64,000 nt of DNA. Origin: Hufsiella ginkgonis. Its GTDB lineage: Bacteria > Bacteroidota > Bacteroidia > Sphingobacteriales > Sphingobacteriaceae. The notes below the pieces were generated by a model. The model was not told the origin of the DNA and did no database searches. It saw only the letters and a program-made list of their open reading frames with translations. Numbering within the stretch: the stretch's first letter is position 1; the number at the start of each line of letters is the position of its first letter. Below, in pieces: positions 47,161 through 57,675 of this stretch. Location: contig NZ_WVHS01000004.1 of the NCBI RefSeq assembly GCF_009834915.1, positions 62,001 to 126,000 of the forward strand, in the 5' to 3' direction. The position numbers were made by a program, and so were the translations under genes.

Positions 47161-48687
47161 TTATGATTGTGTTATTGCAGCCAGGTCCCTGGTAGCCGGT
47201 CCGGTTAACACCTTGCCATCAATATCATAACGGGCGCCGTGACAAGGGCAATCCCAGCTTTTTTCTGCGCCGTTCCAGTTAACGATACATCCGGCATGAG
47301 TGCAGGTAGGATTAAGGGCATGAACTACGCCGTCTTCATCCCGGTATGCCGCGACCTTCTCCCCGTCTACTTCAACCAACTTGCCGGTGCCTGGTTTTAA
47401 ACGCTTCAGCGAATCGGTTTCCCGGAAACTGAAACGATCAGCGACAAAGCGACGCACTACATCCGCGTTTTCTTTCACGAATTCGGTGAAACCCGCCATA
47501 GGTTTAATACGCGACGCATTAAAAAGACCGGCATACTTGTTTTCCCTGCCCGATACCAGGTCGGCGAGAATGCCGGCGGCGACACTGCCCAGCATCATGC
47601 CGTTGCCATTATAACCTGTAGCACAATAAATTCCTTTTTCTGCAAACGGCATTTGCCCGATGTACGGTAATCCGTCTACCGGCACATAATACTGGCTGGA
47701 CCAGCGGTATTTGACCGAGGATATGTTATAATATTTCCGGGTATATTTTTCAAGGTCGGCAAATGACTTTTCCGGGTCTTCGTGACCAGTTTTATGATCG
47801 AGACCGCCCACCAATAAGAGCTCCTCCCCGTTGACGATGTGGCTCCGCACGTAATGATAAGGTTCCTGGGTATCGTAAATCAGTGCATCCGGGTATTTAC
47901 CGCTTTTCAGTTTCACTGCCAGCACATAACTCCGGTAAGGTGCGCACTCGAAATTAAAAACATTAATATTGGGAGGCATGTGGGTGGCATAGATCATATT
48001 TTTGGCGCGGACACCGCCTGCAAGGTGAATCCCGTCCTCATATCCGGTCTGTTCGATCCTGGTATTCTCCAATAACCGCCCGCCCGCATCGAGGTAGGCG
48101 TGCTTCAGCGCCTGGAGGTATTTTAAAGGATGAAATTGTGCCTGACCGTCGAATAGTAACGCCTTTTTGTAGGGCACGGGGGTTGGCACTTCACTGGCAT
48201 ATTGTACCGCAACCCCGACTTTACCCGCGCCCTCATAAATATCGTCGAGCTGTTTTACTTCCTCGTCACTTTCGGCGTACACGTAGCCAGGCTTGCTTTC
48301 ATAATCGCAATCGATCTCCAGGTCGTCCACATGACGCTTGATCATTGTCATTCCCTCAGCAATAGCATCAGCGAAAAGCTGTGCGCCTTCTTTACCAAAT
48401 GCACTTTCAACTTCGTTAAACGTTGTATCTGCGAATGTGTTGATGTGCGCGCTGGTACCGCCGGTGGTGCCAAAACCTACGCCCCGGGCATCTGCCAATA
48501 CGGTCTGCTTCCCGGCTTTTTGCAATAGCAGGGCAGCGGTAAGGCCTGTTATGCCGCCACCCACTATCAGGCAATCGTATACAAGGTTGTTGGTTGGCGT
48601 ATTATCCGGTAGTGAAACATTTGGTTGATCCTGCCAGGGACTTAGATTCCCGCCGTCTCTCCCTGTCACAGTTTTATCGGTTTGCAT
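47161..48687 (-). CDS. FAD-dependent oxidoreductase with C-terminal Rieske domain
   Basis: A 508-residue protein. The DAO-type FAD domain (about 35-400) starts with DCLIVGGGITGLTAALLLQKAG and has the FAD contact GYNGNGMMLGSVAAGILADLV. The Rieske 2Fe-2S domain (about 415-508) has CTHAGCIVNW and CPCHGARYD, giving the two Cys and two His ligands. This fusion is common in soil bacteria; the amine or amino-acid substrate is not known. I chose the ATG at 48687 over 48720, since upstream residues look unlike the family. It is divergent from the large unknown gene. Confidence 0.88.
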   Translation of the reverse strand: MQTDKTVTGRDGGNLSPWQDQPNVSLPDNTPTNNLVYDCLIVGGGITGLTAALLLQKAGKQTVLADARGVGFGTTGGTSAHINTFADTTFNEVESAFGKEGAQLFADAIAEGMTMIKRHVDDLEIDCDYESKPGYVYAESDEEVKQLDDIYEGAGKVGVAVQYASEVPTPVPYKKALLFDGQAQFHPLKYLQALKHAYLDAGGRLLENTRIEQTGYEDGIHLAGGVRAKNMIYATHMPPNINVFNFECAPYRSYVLAVKLKSGKYPDALIYDTQEPYHYVRSHIVNGEELLLVGGLDHKTGHEDPEKSFADLEKYTRKYYNISSVKYRWSSQYYVPVDGLPYIGQMPFAEKGIYCATGYNGNGMMLGSVAAGILADLVSGRENKYAGLFNASRIKPMAGFTEFVKENADVVRRFVADRFSFRETDSLKRLKPGTGKLVEVDGEKVAAYRDEDGVVHALNPTCTHAGCIVNWNGAEKSWDCPCHGARYDIDGKVLTGPATRDLAAITQS

Positions 48688-48908
48688 AGGTTTTTGTTTG
48701 GGTAACCTGAGTATAACCAATTACATGCCAGCCTTTGTTTCTTAAACATTCCGCCCGGGAATAGTTAAGCGGTTATCCGGGGCTGTATTCTTAATGGTAC
48801 ACGGGCAATTTTAGCGTAGCGCTTTCCCGACACGTATAAATCCGGCTGGTCGGGGGGTATGTACTTAACCTGGCCGGGATTTAAACATTTAGCCGGCAAG
48901 GCCGTTTT

Positions 48909-51134
48909 ATGTATCTGCTAACAAGCGCTGCTATGAACGACTTATCTCCCTGGGCGGCATCTGTAGAAGAGATCTTTGACGCCAATACTGCTCGTGAGCT
49001 GTATACTCACCTATTGGGAAGTTATAAAATTAAGGTTTACTGCATTACCAATACGCTATGGCTGAGAATTGAATGCCCGGGCGGTATGCTTGCTATCGTT
49101 CGCGCAGCCTATACGCCTACCGGATCGTTTAAGATCACTTTGCGGGAGAAAACGACCGAAGGGTTTCGGGTCAGGCTGAAATTTGCGACGGGCTTTTTCG
49201 AAACCACAATTAGTTTTCCGGGTGGGGAGTTCCCAATGGTTAGGTATACCACTTCTATGAAAACATTGGAAGGCCTTTACATTCCCTTCTCACCGCGCGA
49301 CCTTGTGATTACAGATAATAAGGGCGCCAGGAACACCAGTAAAGGCCGGATCCAAATCACACAAACCGGCGCGCGCTCGGGTCTCCAATACCTCAGTTTA
49401 GATGAGCCTGCTTCCGGCAGCCTGCTCTATTTCCAGAACCTGACAGCGCTTAACGAGTATTGCCAGCTTACCGGGACCTCGGCCGGCGGAACGGTTGGAG
49501 GTAAATGGCCGGAGATCGGGTTTGCTTTGCCGTCCTCAATAGAGAAATCGATACCCAAAGGTAAAGAGCTGATCCTGTCAGATGCCATCCTGGCCCTCAG
49601 CCCGGAACTCCCTGTAAAAAACGCCGGCCTTGCGAAACAATTCCTGGACATGCTGGCGGCAGTGTATTTACATCTTCCTAAACCGGATACGCAAATGCAT
49701 GACTGGCCCGGCATACTGCAAAAAGGGCTCAAAGACCTTGACAGTCCGGCGTGCTGGCTCCATCGTAAAGGACAGGACTACCTGAACGCTTACGTGTGTG
49801 ATTACTCGACGCCACCGGAGCTGATGGTGCAAATGGCGGTACTTCTTCCGTTGGTAGACTATAAGATGTGGTCCGGCGAAGATATGCCGGTAATTAATAC
49901 CATCCGGAAGGGTATGCCCACCTTTTACGACCAAAAGCTGAAAACCGTGACGCGTTTCTTGCCATCTATGGAGGGCGACCTCAGCCAGGAAGAGGAGCAG
50001 CTAAAACCCAAAGTAATGGACGCCTGGTACCTGCACCACCCGATGCTAAACCTATGCCGGATGGCGCTTCACGGGGATGACGTCGCAAAAGATCTTTTCC
50101 TGAAATCGCTGCCATTTACTATTAAAGTCGCTCATCATTTTAATTACCGGTGGCCGGTGTTCTACAATATGGAGACGCTTGAAGTGATTAAAGCCGAAAC
50201 ATCTCCCGAAAAAGGCGGCGAAAAAGACGTGGCAGGATTGTATGCGCTGGTGCTCCTTCATGCATGGCAGCTTACTAAAGAAAAGAAATACCTGAAAGAA
50301 GCGGAAAAAGCCGCAAAGACCCTTGAAGAAAAAGGTTTCGACCTCTTTTACCAGGGGAATAATACGGCCTTTTCGGCCAAGGCTTTGTTACAGCTATACC
50401 TGGAAACCGGGAACGAGAAATATCTCGACCTGAGCTATCTCTGCATTGCGGGGATCATGAAGAACGTACAGCTATGGGAATGCAATTACGGTTACGCAAA
50501 ACATTATAATACGTTCTTCGGCGTCTTCCCGCTTAACGACGCTCCCTATACCGCCGCCTATGAAGAACAGGAAATCTTCGCTGCATTGCACGATTATTTG
50601 ATCCAGGCGCAAACCGTGGACCTCAGGCCATCGGTAAAGCTCCTCCTTGCGGAGTTCATTCGTTTTCTTGTGCAGCGGGCTATGTTCTATTACCCGCCGA
50701 ACTTGCCGGCCGAAATGCTTTCGGAAGAAGTGAAAATGGGAGAAGTAGACAAGAATCTCTGGATCGCGCTGGAAGACATCTATGATGGATGGGAAAAATC
50801 GGGACAGGTCGGCCAGGAGGTGTATGGCGCCGGCGTCGCATTCGGTATCGTTCCGAGGCATTACCACCAGGTTAAAGATCAACAGGTGCTCATCTATTGC
50901 GATTACCCGGTTTCGGGGTTCCGCAGCAAGGGCCGTAAGGCAACCTTCACTACGGGCGGCGACAGGCGTTTATCCTGCAGGATGGTGATCGTGGTGCAGG
51001 ACGATAAAAAGATGCCGCATTTCAAGGTCGACGCCGGCGGGAGCGCATCGGGTGAGGTAACAGGCGTTCACCGCGCGGACCGGCAAATAGAATTCACGGT
51101 GCCCGGAAACCAGTATATAGAAATAACCTGGTAA
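48909..51134 (+). CDS. Unrecognised 741-residue protein with a probable alpha/alpha-toroid domain
   Basis: I do not recognise this protein. It lacks a signal peptide, so it seems cytoplasmic. Residues about 1-230 are beta-rich. Residues about 230-640 are helical with repeated helix pairs such as VAGLYALVLLHAWQLTKEKKYLKEA and ALLQLYLETGNEKYLDLSYLC, resembling a six-hairpin glycosidase or epimerase toroid. The last 100 residues are beta-rich and end YIEITW. A catalytic pair cannot be named. A second in-frame ATG at 48933 (MNDLSPWAA) may be the true start. It stands alone and ends at a terminator. Confidence 0.75.
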   Translation: MYLLTSAAMNDLSPWAASVEEIFDANTARELYTHLLGSYKIKVYCITNTLWLRIECPGGMLAIVRAAYTPTGSFKITLREKTTEGFRVRLKFATGFFETTISFPGGEFPMVRYTTSMKTLEGLYIPFSPRDLVITDNKGARNTSKGRIQITQTGARSGLQYLSLDEPASGSLLYFQNLTALNEYCQLTGTSAGGTVGGKWPEIGFALPSSIEKSIPKGKELILSDAILALSPELPVKNAGLAKQFLDMLAAVYLHLPKPDTQMHDWPGILQKGLKDLDSPACWLHRKGQDYLNAYVCDYSTPPELMVQMAVLLPLVDYKMWSGEDMPVINTIRKGMPTFYDQKLKTVTRFLPSMEGDLSQEEEQLKPKVMDAWYLHHPMLNLCRMALHGDDVAKDLFLKSLPFTIKVAHHFNYRWPVFYNMETLEVIKAETSPEKGGEKDVAGLYALVLLHAWQLTKEKKYLKEAEKAAKTLEEKGFDLFYQGNNTAFSAKALLQLYLETGNEKYLDLSYLCIAGIMKNVQLWECNYGYAKHYNTFFGVFPLNDAPYTAAYEEQEIFAALHDYLIQAQTVDLRPSVKLLLAEFIRFLVQRAMFYYPPNLPAEMLSEEVKMGEVDKNLWIALEDIYDGWEKSGQVGQEVYGAGVAFGIVPRHYHQVKDQQVLIYCDYPVSGFRSKGRKATFTTGGDRRLSCRMVIVVQDDKKMPHFKVDAGGSASGEVTGVHRADRQIEFTVPGNQYIEITW

Positions 51135-51190
51135 ACCGTCTAGATCAAATCTTGTTGGTGAAACAATTATCGCCGGATCCAAATACACCG

Positions 51191-51220
51191 AAGCCCCTTG
51201 CGGGGCTTTGGCTATTTTTT
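51191..51220 (+). terminator. Terminator after the 741-residue gene
   Basis: A short strong stem (AGCCCC with GGGGCT, extended by A-T) and a TTGC loop, followed on the plus strand by GGCTA and a run of six T. It also overlaps the end of the small minus-strand gene at 51212. Confidence 0.75.
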
Positions 51221-51385
51221 ATTTTCGAGCTTTTTTTCTACCGCACTTCGTTTACCGGAACCAGCGGCCTTTTTAGCTGCCTGGACTTTCTCCGGCGTCG
51301 TGCTTTCTTTTTTCGCTTCGTATGCTAACTCGTGGGGTTGTTCAGATACTGAGTTTCTTTCCACTTTTGTTCCTCTTGTTGCCAT
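51212..51385 (-). CDS. 57-residue DUF3606-like basic protein
   Basis: An ATG at 51385 opens a 57-residue frame closed by TAG at 51214-51212. The product is Lys-rich and hydrophilic, with PHELAYEAKKESTTPEKVQ followed by KKAAGSGKRSAVEKKL. This matches the helix-turn layout of DUF3606 (EYEAKKxGVxPEKVxEA...SRxxVExYL) seen in small stress-associated proteins. The core GV is replaced by ST and the C-terminal helix is short, so it may be a divergent member. It faces the 741-residue gene, with which it shares the hairpin region. Confidence 0.55.
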   Translation of the reverse strand: MATRGTKVERNSVSEQPHELAYEAKKESTTPEKVQAAKKAAGSGKRSAVEKKLENKK

Positions 51386-51683: not shown

Positions 51684-51884
51684 ATGGCCAGGAATCCTTT
51701 ATGCACTACCGAGCTGCTGGGAAAGATCTTTCAGCCGTTCTTTACCACCAGGCCAACCGGGCAGGATACTGGCCCCGGGCTTTCTATTAGTTATGACATC
51801 ATCGTAAACGGGCATAACGGCGGGTTCAGCGTGGTTGCCGGGGAAAATAACTACACCGGGTTCACCCTAACGTTACCTGTATGA
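51684..51884 (+). pseudogene. Remnant of a histidine-kinase ATPase domain
   Basis: The 66-codon frame holds only the C-terminal end of a HATPase domain: GKIFQPFFTTRPTGQDTGPGLS, SYDIIVNGHNGG and a final FTLTLPV. The intact kinases at 51923 and 55522 have KIFQPFFTTKPTG(E/Q)GTGLGLSLSYDIV at the same place. Here the G2 loop GTGLGLS has become DTGPGLS, and the phospho-His, N and G1 boxes are missing. A TGA lies two codons upstream. It is most likely a decayed third kinase of the array, ending 39 bases before the next start. Confidence 0.75.
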
Positions 51885-51922
51885 AATGGATAGTTTATCG
51901 TCTTACTCCCCCTCATCGATCT

Positions 51923-54900
51923 ATGAATACCGGGCGGTTTGTAATCCTCTCCCTTTTAACGGCCTTCATGGCGGCAACCGTGCATGCGCAGGAACCGCGC
52001 TTTGAACCTCTTACGGTAGAACAGGGCTTGCCCACCGACGCAATCGCCGGGGCATTCCAGGACAAACGCGGTTATATCTGGATCTGCACCGACGGCGGCG
52101 TTGCTCGCTACGACGGGTACATCCTAAAAAAGTACCTGTTTAAAACCGCTTCCGGCCAGCCGCTTCGTTCGGATATGACGCTCGCCATGCTGGAGGATAA
52201 TGCCGGAACGATCTGGGCGGGCACCTGGCATGACGGTCTTTTCCGGTACGTACCGGAACGCGACGAGTTCGTACAAGCCGTCACCCGCCGTCGGGGCAAA
52301 CCAGGCGGACTGCCGACGGACGACATTCATCATATCACCGATGCCGGTCAAAAGCGGCTGTGGATCCACACCTATGATCACGATCGTGAACGCGGATACA
52401 TGAGCCTGTACGACACCGGTTCCGGCCGGATACGAAACTTCTCATTCGGTACGAATAGTATCGGCTACCCGATCAATACCTATTATGACCCATCGCATGC
52501 GTTATGGTTCCAGGGCTTGTCAGGGCTTTATATGTACGACCGGTCGGCAAATAGATTCCTCCAGTACCCGATAGGTTCACCTGATACGTCGGGTATGCCT
52601 TATAACCCGGTCATCTACCAGCAACCTTCCAGGAAACAGGTACTTTGGCTCTCCTACCGCTCAGGACCCCTGATACTTAACCGCTTCGATACCGGGAACA
52701 GGCGCTACCGCTCATACCGGCTGCCAGGTCCGGAAGCACGTTCCAACAGCGCCTGCAGCTTCCTGGAGGACAGGAACGGCCGGCTATGGATGGGCGGAAG
52801 CGCCGGCCTGTTCTATTTCGACGAGCAACATGACAAGTTCATTTCTTATCCCCTGCCCGCAGGCGCAAAGGACGGTACAACAAGTATCAGCAGTATTACC
52901 GCCGACAAAAGTGGTATGATATGGATCTCCGGAAACACGGGGCTTTACACACTGGATCCAGTTACCGGGAAACTCAGACAGCTGAGCGATGCCCGGGCTG
53001 ATGGGAAGGCCGTAGACAGGATAACGACCTTTGGAGGCACCGCCCTTGTTGACCGGAACGGCGGTTTCTGGCTGGAGGGGCGGGGAGGTCTTTACCGGTT
53101 AAAGGAAGGATCGCAGGCATTCAGACTATATGAAAAAAGCGCGCCTTCGGAGAAGCCATGGGGCCGGGTTTATGATATTCTTCAGGTTTCGGACAGCAGC
53201 TGTCTCGTTGCCACGGCGACCGGCCTGTATACCTGGAATACAAAGGCCGACCAGTTCACAGCCTATCGCCCTTCCGGGCAGGAACAACTTCAGCCCCTGG
53301 TGTTTTATAGTCTTGCAATGGATAAAAACGGATGGGTCTGGGGATCAGCGAATTCGAACGGAGACGTTATCATCGCCTTCAGGCCCTACAGGGGCCGGCC
53401 CCGCATTTACCGGAACGCTCCCGGTGATCCGTGGAGCGTCCCGTACCACGGGCTGTCTCTCGTTTACATCGACCCGAAGAACGAGGTTTGGATAGGAACT
53501 ACGAACGACGGCCTGGTACGGTACGACCGTGCCCGCGATCACTTTATCCGGTACCCCACCGCTGTCCTGCAGGAAACCGGCACCAGTATGCTGAACGACG
53601 AGCATGTTTATTCCCTGTATAAAGACCGGCGGGGCACGCTTTGGGTCGGTTGTTATAACCAGGGCCTGAGCAGGCTCGACGAGAAGTCGGGTCGTTTTAC
53701 GCCATATAACTTCCGGGGAATGGAAAAAATTTCGTCCATGCTCGAGGATTCTAAAGGGCGGTTTTGGGTGGGATCGGCGCTATACGGTCTGCACCTGTTC
53801 GACCGGGCGAAAGGAACATCGCGCCTGTTCACCGAAAAAGACGGGCTTTTATCGAACGGCGTGCTCCACATCCGCGAAGACCCGAAGGGCTTATTGTGGA
53901 TCGCCACAAACCGCGGCCTGTGCTGCCTGGACCCGCAGTCGTTCACATTCCGTCCGGTGACCAGCGACCACGGGTTGCCGGAAAACGTGCTCACACACGA
54001 TGTTGCCGAATCCCTGCCCGACGGGCGCATGGCGATCAGCAGCGCAAGCGGGTTTATTACCTTTAACCCCGGCAAGTTACGGGTGAACCGTGTCCCGCCG
54101 CAGGTAGTGCTCGAGTCGGTTTCTTACTATGCCGGGTCTTCCAAAGGCACAGCGACCCGGGAGTCGACTCTCGTGGCTTACGGAAACAAGCAGCTGGCCT
54201 TCAGATACGATGAGAACCGGTTAACCTTTCATTATACGGCCCTGCATTTCAAGAATCCCCGGCTCAACCAGTACGCTTACCGGCTCGATGGGTACGACCG
54301 TTCGTGGATCCCTGCAGGCGGGCAACGATCGGCGGTATATACCAGTCTTTCGCCCGGGACGTATGTGTTCCGTGTAAAGGCAGCGAACGCAGATGGTGTT
54401 TGGAGCCCCGGCGATGCCAGCATCACCCTGGTAATCTCCCCTCCCTGGTGGCGAACCTGGTGGGCTTATTGCGGGTATACGATCCTGTTTATTGCCGCCA
54501 CTTGGGCGTTCATCGAGCATCGCTCGCGTTCCGTTCGCAGGAGAAACCGGGAACTGGAAGAAAACGTGAACTTGCGTACGGCGGAACTGAACCGCTCCCT
54601 CGAAAAGCTGAAATCCACACAGGCCCAGCTCATCCAATCCGAAAAGATGGCGTCGCTGGGTGAGCTTACCGCCGGTATCGCCCATGAGATACAGAACCCG
54701 CTCAACTTCGTAAACAACTTCTCCGAAGTGAGCCACGAGCTGGTGGGGGAGCTAAAGGAAGAAATAAGAAATGGAGAATGGGAGACGGTGGCGGAAATAG
54801 CCGATGATATCGGAACAAACCTGGAAAAGATCGTCCACCACGGCAAGCGGGCCGATGGTATCGTTAAAGGCATGCTGGAGCACAGCCGCGCTTCTACGGG

Positions 54901-55438
54901 CGAGAAAGAATTTACCGACATCAATAAGCTGACCGATGAGTATTTGCGGCTGGCATACCACGGTATCCGCGCTAAGGACAAGAGTTTCAACGCCGAACTG
55001 GTAACGGACTTCGATAAGGCGCTGCCCAAAGCCGGGATCGTACCGCAGGATATCGGCCGCGTGCTGCTGAACCTGCTGAACAACGCATTCCAGGCGGTAC
55101 AGGAACGGGGCAGAAAGGAAGGCGCTGATTTCAAACCAAAAGTAACCGTAGTTACCTGCGGCAGCGCCGATGAGATCGAAATACAGATCTCCGACAACGG
55201 CCCGGGCATTCCTGAGCCGATCAGGCAGAAGATCTTCCAGCCGTTTTTCACTACCAAGCCTACCGGCGAGGGGACCGGGCTCGGCTTATCCCTGAGTTAC
55301 GATATAGTGGCCGCTCACCATGGGAAAATGGAAATGCGCGCTCTCGCTTCGGATGGCGGGGAAGACCCGGACCGCCGAACGACGTTTATCGTCCGGTTAC
55401 CCGTAAATTCAAGCAACCGAAATAATCAAACCGTATGA
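51923..55438 (+). CDS. Sensor histidine kinase with two-component-regulator propeller and Y_Y_Y domain
   Basis: A 1171-residue membrane kinase. Signal peptide at 1-22, a periplasmic propeller of reg_prop-like repeats (about 30-715, with QDKRGYIWICTDGG, EDNAGTIWAGTWHDG and EDRNGRLWMGGSAG), a Y_Y_Y domain (about 760-825, YRLDGYDRSWIPAG), one membrane segment (about 845-862), a coiled coil, HisKA with LTAGIAHEIQNPLNFVNNF (phospho-His about 921) and a HATPase ending RTTFIVRLPV. It lacks the receiver/AraC part of HTCS regulators. The ATG at 51923 begins the signal peptide; an earlier one at 51881 overlaps the remnant. Likely partner is the receiver at 57700. Confidence 0.9.
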   Translation: MNTGRFVILSLLTAFMAATVHAQEPRFEPLTVEQGLPTDAIAGAFQDKRGYIWICTDGGVARYDGYILKKYLFKTASGQPLRSDMTLAMLEDNAGTIWAGTWHDGLFRYVPERDEFVQAVTRRRGKPGGLPTDDIHHITDAGQKRLWIHTYDHDRERGYMSLYDTGSGRIRNFSFGTNSIGYPINTYYDPSHALWFQGLSGLYMYDRSANRFLQYPIGSPDTSGMPYNPVIYQQPSRKQVLWLSYRSGPLILNRFDTGNRRYRSYRLPGPEARSNSACSFLEDRNGRLWMGGSAGLFYFDEQHDKFISYPLPAGAKDGTTSISSITADKSGMIWISGNTGLYTLDPVTGKLRQLSDARADGKAVDRITTFGGTALVDRNGGFWLEGRGGLYRLKEGSQAFRLYEKSAPSEKPWGRVYDILQVSDSSCLVATATGLYTWNTKADQFTAYRPSGQEQLQPLVFYSLAMDKNGWVWGSANSNGDVIIAFRPYRGRPRIYRNAPGDPWSVPYHGLSLVYIDPKNEVWIGTTNDGLVRYDRARDHFIRYPTAVLQETGTSMLNDEHVYSLYKDRRGTLWVGCYNQGLSRLDEKSGRFTPYNFRGMEKISSMLEDSKGRFWVGSALYGLHLFDRAKGTSRLFTEKDGLLSNGVLHIREDPKGLLWIATNRGLCCLDPQSFTFRPVTSDHGLPENVLTHDVAESLPDGRMAISSASGFITFNPGKLRVNRVPPQVVLESVSYYAGSSKGTATRESTLVAYGNKQLAFRYDENRLTFHYTALHFKNPRLNQYAYRLDGYDRSWIPAGGQRSAVYTSLSPGTYVFRVKAANADGVWSPGDASITLVISPPWWRTWWAYCGYTILFIAATWAFIEHRSRSVRRRNRELEENVNLRTAELNRSLEKLKSTQAQLIQSEKMASLGELTAGIAHEIQNPLNFVNNFSEVSHELVGELKEEIRNGEWETVAEIADDIGTNLEKIVHHGKRADGIVKGMLEHSRASTGEKEFTDINKLTDEYLRLAYHGIRAKDKSFNAELVTDFDKALPKAGIVPQDIGRVLLNLLNNAFQAVQERGRKEGADFKPKVTVVTCGSADEIEIQISDNGPGIPEPIRQKIFQPFFTTKPTGEGTGLGLSLSYDIVAAHHGKMEMRALASDGGEDPDRRTTFIVRLPVNSSNRNNQTV

Positions 55439-55521: not shown

Positions 55522-57675
55522 ATGAAAAAGAATTCACTGCGCTGCTTTTGGAGCTTTCTCCTCGCTGCAGCGGCTTTCTCCCAGTCCCGGGCGCAGGTTA
55601 TTGATTACCGGGCCATGCCCAAAGACGGCATCACCCTCGATACCGGCTGGCGGTTCAGCTCCGCAGATAACCCCGCTTTTCGCCTACCCCGCTTTAACGA
55701 TGCGACCTGGGATACCATTCGCCCCACCAACTATTTATCTGCTTATCCCCGGCTCAAAAACCTGAAGATCGGCTGGCTCCGCTTACACTTCAGGGTCAGC
55801 GATACGCTGGCTGCACAAACCCTGTTGCTCACTGTTGAGCATTGCGGCGCCTCGGAGATCTACCTGGACGGCCGCTTGCTGCAACGGCACGGCAAGCTCA
55901 ATACCGGCCCCGCGACGCTCGACGCTACCGGCCTGAATATGCCGCCGGACGGAATTCGCCTGTTGCCCGGGCAAGAGCATCTGCTGGCTATCCGCTTCGC
56001 GATGCATCCGCGTGCGTTCTGGTATCCGAATACCTATGAGGTGCTTTTTGCCCGGATAACGGGAACGTTGAAGTATCACGATTACCTGGTCTACCAGACG
56101 ACCCGGACGTTTTTGTATGGCTCCCTGTTTTTTGTATTTCTCCTGCTAAGTCTGCTGCACATCGCGTTTTACGGCTATAACCGGGCGCAACGGGCCAACT
56201 TGTTTTTCGCCGTTTATGCCATGTTCATGATGGTCGGTTTCCTGGCGGTAAAATTAATAGCCGACGTACAGGACGCCGCCCTGGCTATACTGGTATATAC
56301 AGTGGCTAATTCCTTCACGTTGATCGGCGGCGTCTGGATCGTTTACGCCCTGTATGTGCTGTTTAATTTCCGGATAAATAAAATGATCGTGATCCTCCTA
56401 TGGACTATTGTCTTTACCGGCCTTATCATGGGGCTTTTCCTTCCCGGGAGGCTCAGTATATGGGGGTTTATACTCGGCACGGTAGGCCCCGCCGTCACTC
56501 AGCTATGGATCACCGGCAAGGCGCTTAAACAAAAGAAACGCGGAGCAGGCATCATCGCGGTCGGGTTCGCATTATGTATCCTGGCGGCAGTGGCCGCCTT
56601 CGGCGTTATGTCGCAGGCAGCCGGTTCCAGTGCCTCCATTATCCAGATGACCCTGCTCTTCCTCACCTTCCTGGCGCCCGGGTTGGGCATCTCCATGTAC
56701 CTGGCGCGCGAATTCGCCCTCGACAGCCAGTTGCTCCAGGAAAAGCTGGTCCAGGTAGAATCGCTCTCGGCGCAAAGCCTTCGGCAGGAACAGGAGAAAC
56801 AACAGTTACTGGCCACTCAAAACGAAACATTGGAAAAACTAGTCGCCGAACGCACCGCTCAACTCAATTATTCGCTCGGGCACCTGCAAGCCACGCAAAA
56901 CCAGCTGATACAGGCGGAGAAAATGGCTTCGCTCGGTGAGCTGACGGCCGGCATCGCCCACGAGATACAGAACCCGCTGAACTTCGTGAATAATTTTTCG
57001 GAGGTAAGCAGGGAACTGGTGGATGAGCTGAAAGAGGAAATAGAGAAGGCGGAATGGAACATAGTGTCGGAGATCGCCGATGACATCGGAACGAACCTGG
57101 AAAAGATCGCCCATCACGGGAAACGGGCCGATAACATCGTCAAAGGCATGTTACAGCATTCGCGGGCAAGTTCCGGTCAAAAAGAGGCGACAGATATGAA
57201 TGCTTTAACGGATGAATACCTTCTGCTAAGCTATCATGGCCTCAGGTCGAAGGATCAATCATTCAACACGGAATTGGTGACCGACTTCGACCCGGCATTG
57301 CCGGAAGCTGACGTAGTGCCGCAGGATATCGGCCGCGTACTCCTCAACGTGTTCAACAACGCGTTTCAAGCGGTGCAGGAGCGGGCCGGGAGGGAGAACA
57401 GGGATTTCAAGCCCAGGGTGACAGTAGTTACATCCGGGACGACCGATGCGATTGAGATACGGGTCACAGACAACGGTCCCGGCATTCCGGAACAGGTCAG
57501 GCATAAAATCTTCCAGCCGTTCTTCACCACCAAACCTACCGGCCAAGGAACGGGACTCGGCCTGTCGCTGAGTTACGACATTGTAGCTGCCCACAACGGA
57601 AAAATGGAGGTACTTTCCCCGGCCGATGGCCCGGAACCGGGAACTACATTCATTATCAAGTTACCATTAAAATGA
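55522..57675 (+). CDS. Sensor histidine kinase with seven-helix (7TMR-DISM-like) input
   Basis: A 717-residue membrane kinase. Signal peptide at 1-25, an extracellular galactose-binding-like domain (about 35-180, TGWRFSSADNPAFRLPRF and EIYLDGRLLQRHG), seven hydrophobic helices (about 195-400), coiled coil (about 405-455), then HisKA LTAGIAHEIQNPLNFVNNF (phospho-His about 480) and HATPase with DNGPGIPE, FFTTKPTGQGTGLGLS and TTFIIKLPLK. The cytoplasmic half is nearly the same as that of the preceding kinase, which points to tandem duplication with swapped sensors. It is 24 bases upstream of the receiver. Confidence 0.9.
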   Translation: MKKNSLRCFWSFLLAAAAFSQSRAQVIDYRAMPKDGITLDTGWRFSSADNPAFRLPRFNDATWDTIRPTNYLSAYPRLKNLKIGWLRLHFRVSDTLAAQTLLLTVEHCGASEIYLDGRLLQRHGKLNTGPATLDATGLNMPPDGIRLLPGQEHLLAIRFAMHPRAFWYPNTYEVLFARITGTLKYHDYLVYQTTRTFLYGSLFFVFLLLSLLHIAFYGYNRAQRANLFFAVYAMFMMVGFLAVKLIADVQDAALAILVYTVANSFTLIGGVWIVYALYVLFNFRINKMIVILLWTIVFTGLIMGLFLPGRLSIWGFILGTVGPAVTQLWITGKALKQKKRGAGIIAVGFALCILAAVAAFGVMSQAAGSSASIIQMTLLFLTFLAPGLGISMYLAREFALDSQLLQEKLVQVESLSAQSLRQEQEKQQLLATQNETLEKLVAERTAQLNYSLGHLQATQNQLIQAEKMASLGELTAGIAHEIQNPLNFVNNFSEVSRELVDELKEEIEKAEWNIVSEIADDIGTNLEKIAHHGKRADNIVKGMLQHSRASSGQKEATDMNALTDEYLLLSYHGLRSKDQSFNTELVTDFDPALPEADVVPQDIGRVLLNVFNNAFQAVQERAGRENRDFKPRVTVVTSGTTDAIEIRVTDNGPGIPEQVRHKIFQPFFTTKPTGQGTGLGLSLSYDIVAAHNGKMEVLSPADGPEPGTTFIIKLPLK

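Follow-up and report, generated by a model that had tools for sequence, protein, structure and literature searches.

The window analysed here, a stretch of 64,000 nucleotides of Hufsiella ginkgonis DNA, carries a long open reading frame at positions 48909–51134, and the question was what its product does. A preliminary description, made from the letters, had called it a cytoplasmic protein of unknown family, 741 residues long, with a beta-rich N-terminal part, helix pairs resembling an alpha/alpha toroid and a beta-rich end, a layout like that of glycoside hydrolases or epimerases. Structure prediction with a fold search, profile searches for homologues and conserved acids, and a comparison of gene neighbours across genomes had been proposed as checks. 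Based on these analyses, the protein belongs to an enzyme-like, unnamed family that is conserved in Bacteroidota and Alphaproteobacteria, and the genes around it suggest a mannoside pathway that runs inside the cell and is connected with stress. The protein is best explained as an inverting glycoside hydrolase or phosphorylase of the cytosol that acts in a stress-linked, probably beta-1,2-mannoside pathway. Predicted fold, family membership, conservation and linkage to other genes come from the analyses themselves, while reaction, catalytic residues, substrate and physiology are inferred; this reading is given a probability of about one half. The GH65-like layout of the whole protein, the SDR partner, the linkage to GH130 and the stress-gene setting are additions to the preliminary description.

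The gene and its predicted fold

The 741-residue open reading frame was confirmed, with the start codon as the sole correction. Because the window protein shared 44–61% identity with 21 relatives and 141 columns were invariant in the joint alignment, the reading frame is more than a chance occurrence and is conserved across relatives. The alignment was built from 21 of the 25 public loci carrying the gene; the remaining four were left out as lying at a contig end (L009), as near-identical to L020 (L018) or as split reading frames (L027 and L030). The first residue of most relatives corresponded to residue 9 of the 741-residue frame, so the true start is probably the ATG at 48933, giving a gene at 48933–51134 (+) and a protein of 733 aa. 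The gene is present as a single copy in the H. ginkgonis genome. The claimed lack of a signal peptide agreed with the hydropathy, as no hydrophobic leader was found in the first 75 residues, where the best 15-mer had a mean Kyte-Doolittle value of only 1.3. The terminator ascribed to the gene was recovered as an intrinsic-terminator-like, GC-rich hairpin of 10 pairs at 51188–51211 (+) followed by a T run. The oxidoreductase that the gene had been said to face away from, at 47161–48720 (−), matched both DAO (FAD) and Rieske domains.

An AlphaFold2 model of the full-length protein (pLDDT 80.3, pTM 0.88) contained all three of the parts described earlier, the toroid included. Along the chain, it consisted of an N-terminal beta-sandwich (residues 1–232; 48933–49628, +), defined by modelling the domain alone (pLDDT 85.8) and by VIA-align, a linker helix (230–245), twelve main helices (258–643) and a C-terminal beta domain (residues 645–733; 50865–51131, +) assigned from DSSP of the model. 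The (alpha/alpha)6 toroid (about residues 257–645; 49701–50867, +) was assigned by VIA-align to the GH76 structure 4v1s, its best structural match (Z 25.5, rmsd 3.6, 321 residues aligned). This was followed by cellobiose 2-epimerase, AGE and unsaturated glucuronyl hydrolase, with Z values of about 20 for the cellobiose 2-epimerases and 18 for AGE (18–21 for the two together), so that the suspected likeness to glycoside hydrolases and epimerases held. The polysaccharide lyase 5no8 scored a Z of 19.7.

For the N-terminal domain, VIA-align gave Z values of 13.2 to the galactosaminidase GalN (9ayu), 12.8 over 194 residues to residues 35–263 of the GH65 enzyme FjGH65A (7fe3), and 11–12.5 to GH65/GH94 phosphorylases, GH97, lyases and mutarotases. 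These values of 11–13 came from VIA-align only, a Foldseek search with the domain alone having returned no match at E 0.001. YidC scored about as high as the sugar enzymes; since GH97, mutarotases, lyases and YidC score alike, the N-terminal domain alone does not single out GH65. Taken as a whole, the predicted model has the same four-part layout as GH65 (clan GH-L), which includes kojibiose phosphorylase and FjGH65A, an alpha-1,2-glucosidase of Flavobacterium johnsoniae.

An unnamed sequence family

The designation as an unknown family was borne out by the profile searches, from which no clear match to a characterised family emerged. No Pfam or NCBIfam match to the window protein passed the cut-off. 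The sub-threshold Pfam matches were to C5-epimerase, GH88, GH127 and LanC-like families, all of which we take to be toroid families. The D-glucuronyl C5-epimerase profile PF06662 reached 18.8 bits over 30 residues only (cut-off 23.3), GH88 (PF07470) 15.5 bits (cut-off 26.6) and GH127 (PF07944) 11.5 bits (cut-off 24.9). When 22 members of the family were searched, 12 matched PF07470 and eight matched PF06662 at E up to 1, with best E values of 0.0011 and 0.00046, respectively. The profiles for GH65 (PF03632), GH76 (PF03663) and AGE (PF07221) gave no match at E up to 1 to either the window protein or the 22 members. Sequence searches of the PDB also produced sub-threshold matches only, mostly to toroid proteins; the single-sequence search additionally returned an antibody, three lectins and a viral protein at E 0.7–1.9. 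In the libraries searched, the protein therefore represents a sequence family without a name, within the known toroid glycosidase fold, and no paper on this family was present among the matches listed in the literature searches.

Profiles were compared using hhalign, with six of seven GH76 loci (L085 was omitted owing to a stop) and ten each of the fetched GH88, GH127 and AGE loci. Probabilities for the toroid family were 88% with GH127 (129 columns), 87% with GH76 (147 columns), 68% with AGE (73 columns) and 35% with GH88, and the same four profiles gave 33–97% among themselves. The best fold match, to the GH76 alpha-1,6-mannanases, was thus accompanied by a weak profile match. The catalytic residues of GH76 are an Asp-Asp pair; hhalign placed D432 on the first Asp and V433 on the second, in an uncertain register, as the alpha/alpha repeats permit shifts in such an alignment. 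We know of no GH76 catalytic domain with an N-terminal beta domain of this kind. The GH127/GH146 beta-L-arabinofuranosidases have both the toroid and beta domains in common with the protein. The nucleophile of GH127 is a cysteine and, unlike these enzymes, the toroid family had no invariant cysteine in 27 sequences. Membership of GH65 by sequence was also considered and rejected: with 12 of the 20 fetched GH65 loci, the hhalign probability was 0.3–0.4%, and the protein is therefore GH65-like in its layout but does not belong to GH65 by sequence.

Relatives were found in six of 60 near genomes, a count that takes in the window genome itself and a single weak, partial match, and in 11 of 395 genomes across the phylum. 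Within the taxonomic family to which the window belongs, the distribution was patchy: a profile search, fragments included, detected the gene in 93 of 301 genomes. All 25 public loci were from Mucilaginibacter, Chitinophaga, Flavobacterium or the family of Flavobacterium, with the closest named relative in Mucilaginibacter. Four further relatives, 34–40% identical and all annotated as hypothetical protein, were encoded on plasmid records of Spirosoma, Novosphingobium and two Asticcacaulis. Split or stop-bearing copies were present at L027, L030 and in several of the 301 family genomes, a pattern like that of an accessory gene subject to gain and loss. At L079 (8166–8987, −; G016), a truncated N-terminal remnant of 273 aa was observed.

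Conserved loops of the toroid

Conservation was determined over 27 sequences from the two phyla, Bacteroidota and Alphaproteobacteria, in which 55 columns were invariant. The invariant acids of the toroid were D363, D432, E456, E544, E574, E614, D615 and E629, while E422 was kept in 26 of the 27 sequences, with a gap in Novosphingobium. Polar and aromatic invariants of the toroid lay mainly (18 of 22) in the loops or first turns preceding the six inner helices (Fisher p 0.004, with the loop/helix borders set from the model by the analyst after the invariants were known). No histidine was invariant in the 27 sequences; the closest of the positions examined was H369, present in 26 and replaced by Tyr in L074.

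In GH65, the general acid is situated in the alpha5–alpha6 loop and the general base of the hydrolases in the alpha11–alpha12 loop, and the same four-part layout and acid/base loops are given for both GH65 and GH15 in the available part of PMC8626586. Conserved acids were found in these same two loops. The alpha5–alpha6 loop (residues 403–433; 50139–50231, +), with W407, E422 and D432, is the proposed general-acid loop, based on conservation in the 27 sequences and on analogy with GH65 and GH15. From conservation, the model and the same analogy, the alpha11–alpha12 loop (residues 587–629; 50691–50819, +), with E614, D615 and E629, is the proposed general-base loop. The model was weak within both (pLDDT under 50 for residues 408–429 and 616–625), so the exact catalytic residues are not fixed and those named are candidates. 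By this analogy, a glycosidic bond would be cleaved, or by phosphorolysis reversibly made, through an inverting single displacement. The donor sugar would sit in the mouth of the toroid, where D432 or E422 may protonate the leaving oxygen and E614, D615 or E629 may activate water. In a phosphorylase, phosphate would take the place of the activated water and base at the alpha11–alpha12 loop; the phosphorylases of GH65 have a pair of serines that binds phosphate.

Gene neighbourhood and probable pathway

Comparison of gene neighbours across genomes revealed recurrent SDR, GH130 and stress-gene partners. For this purpose, 45 loci were used, comprising the window, the 25 public loci and 19 family loci out of 20 chosen by hand (the one omitted, L079, held a fragment only), with the names of neighbour clusters taken from one representative each. 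In 20 of the 45 loci, the toroid gene was immediately followed by a co-directional gene of the SDR cluster, and in 27 such a gene was within 5 kb. Within the same distance were DUF892 (23 loci), DUF6766 (12), a zinc alcohol dehydrogenase cluster (11), Mn-catalase (7) and catalase (6). Homologues of the FAD/Rieske oxidoreductase were within 5 kb in seven loci, the window included, and at L148 and L149 the FAD/Rieske, GH130 and toroid genes stood in a row.

All 27 toroid-adjacent SDRs had another toroid-adjacent SDR as their best match outside their own locus, a figure that owes part of its size to near-identical copies in Flavobacterium (34 pairs of adjacent SDRs exceeded 85% identity); six of 13 non-adjacent SDRs likewise had a toroid-adjacent one as best match, two of them at 59–67% identity. 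The alphaproteobacterial partners were 36–42% identical to those of Bacteroidota, which is the stronger sign of an old toroid–SDR pairing. An SDR adjoined the toroid gene in three of the four plasmid loci; on the Spirosoma plasmid, the nearest SDR was two genes past GH130 and only 25–28% identical to the other SDRs. The window genome does encode an SDR with 54% identity to the Chitinophaga partner, but on a different contig.

In all four plasmid loci, a GH130 gene lay beside the toroid gene or with a single gene in between. Close linkage of the two is nevertheless a minority pattern: a GH130 of the recurrent neighbour cluster was within 5 kb in only seven of the 45 loci, and among 84 toroid-bearing genomes of the family (the 93 minus nine with only short or weak matches), 13 had a GH130 within 10 kb (16 pairs) and 71 had none. 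About 0.24 such pairs would be expected by chance (hand arithmetic: 22 kb of a 5-Mb genome, over 54 genomes). Across the 301 family genomes, 54 had both genes, 30 (of the 84) the toroid only, 54 GH130 only and 163 neither (p 3e-10), counting near-full-length toroid proteins and GH130 of the L007 kind at E 1e-60, in a test that ignores phylogeny. The window genome encodes a GH130 of the L007 type 123 kb from the toroid gene on the same contig. Among solved structures, the L007 GH130 was closest to the mannoside synthase Uhgb_MS; the Novosphingobium GH130 (L092) was nearest to Lin0857, followed by beta-1,2-mannoside phosphorylases. The plasmid-borne GH130s formed another subgroup, 28–31% identical to L007; that GH130s of two subgroups with about 30% identity should both neighbour the toroid gene speaks against one inherited accident.

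Because the SDR and GH130 enzymes most similar to beta-1,2-mannoside phosphorylases and synthases are recurrent neighbours, the substrate is probably a small glycan inside the cell that is connected with the metabolism of beta-1,2-mannosides. The pathway looks stress-linked, with the sugar probably handled inside soil bacteria under stress. Uhgb_MS is a relative of the toroid gene's neighbour and not of the toroid protein, GH130 having a different fold. It is listed in a review (PMC8950772) as a mixed-linkage mannoside synthase that produces beta-1,2-mannobiose from alpha-mannose-1-phosphate, the available part of which gives the reaction and no cellular role. The gene context offers a testable cellular role for GH130 of the Uhgb_MS type, together with a candidate for a new family of glycosidases or phosphorylases.

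In Thermoanaerobacter, cytosolic GH130 beta-1,2-mannoside phosphorylases lie beside GT4 in a GH130/GDP-mannose cluster, as the divergent toroid copies at L072–L074 likewise lie with a GT4-type gene; unlike the toroid loci, that cluster includes ABC transporter genes and a mannose-1-phosphate guanylyltransferase, and two hypothetical proteins are also there (PMC4264767, in part). Mannose salvage was proposed for this GH130 in the same available text, and a similar role would be the soberer interpretation here. The bolder interpretation takes mannogen, the beta-1,2-mannan energy store of Leishmania that is turned over by GH130-fold enzymes (PMC8950772, in part), as its model: the toroid protein, SDR and GH130 would form an intracellular beta-1,2-mannoside reserve or protective-solute pathway of soil Bacteroidota and Alphaproteobacteria, and the toroid protein would found a new glycoside hydrolase or phosphorylase family. 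This mannogen-like proposal is speculative and we regard it as doubtful. The minority of genomes with GH130 close by counts against the salvage and the mannogen-like interpretations alike.

Other activities were weighed against hydrolysis or phosphorolysis. The GH130 neighbours and the toroid Z values of 18 to about 20 would also suit a sugar epimerase or isomerase like AGE or cellobiose 2-epimerase, altering a reducing-end sugar before or after GH130 acts; cellobiose 2-epimerase is known to work with mannosylglucose phosphorylase in such a route. AGE enzymes use two histidines, however, and unlike them the toroid family has no invariant histidine, H369 being the nearest approach. The AGE enzymes also lack, to our knowledge, an N-terminal beta-sandwich, and their profile matched at only 68% over 73 columns, which makes an epimerase unlikely. 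An oxidative route, in which the SDR and the toroid protein form a two-step pair, the former making a keto-sugar and the latter acting on it by elimination or hydrolysis, with the part of GH130 limited to providing the substrate, would account for the SDR being the most frequent partner, and toroid folds are known in polysaccharide lyases such as 5no8, with lyase beta-domains resembling the N-terminal domain. Against this, the only PDB relative of the SDR at E 1e-30 was clavaldehyde/clavulanic acid dehydrogenase, and in Spirosoma no such SDR was adjacent; this route is also judged improbable.

A non-catalytic or non-carbohydrate role, such as that of a scaffold or of a LanC-like enzyme, would fit the sub-threshold LanC-like matches and the many functions that toroids serve. 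It is very unlikely given the carbohydrate genes nearby, the glycoside hydrolases as strongest structural matches, the 55 columns invariant across two phyla, and the invariant acids and aromatics in loops at the predicted toroid mouth. The inverting hydrolase or phosphorylase remains the preferred reading.

Several smaller features were also observed. At L072–L074, a protein of approximately 360 aa is encoded alongside the GT4-type glycosyltransferase; that of L073 (15382–16452) had no Pfam or NCBIfam match, and L072 and L073 also encode a GH130 of 488 aa. In the window, a small lysine-rich open reading frame of 57 aa (51212–51385, −) is convergent with the toroid gene just past its terminator. 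Further downstream are tandem sensor kinases at 51881–55438 and 55522–57675 (+), with kinase halves that by eye are closely similar and sensor halves that differ, a pattern as after duplication with sensor exchange. Directly upstream of the first kinase, a 66-aa open reading frame (51684–51884, +) resembles the C-terminal end of these histidine kinases, having the KIFQPFFTT and SYDI stretches in common with both, and looks like the remnant of a third copy.
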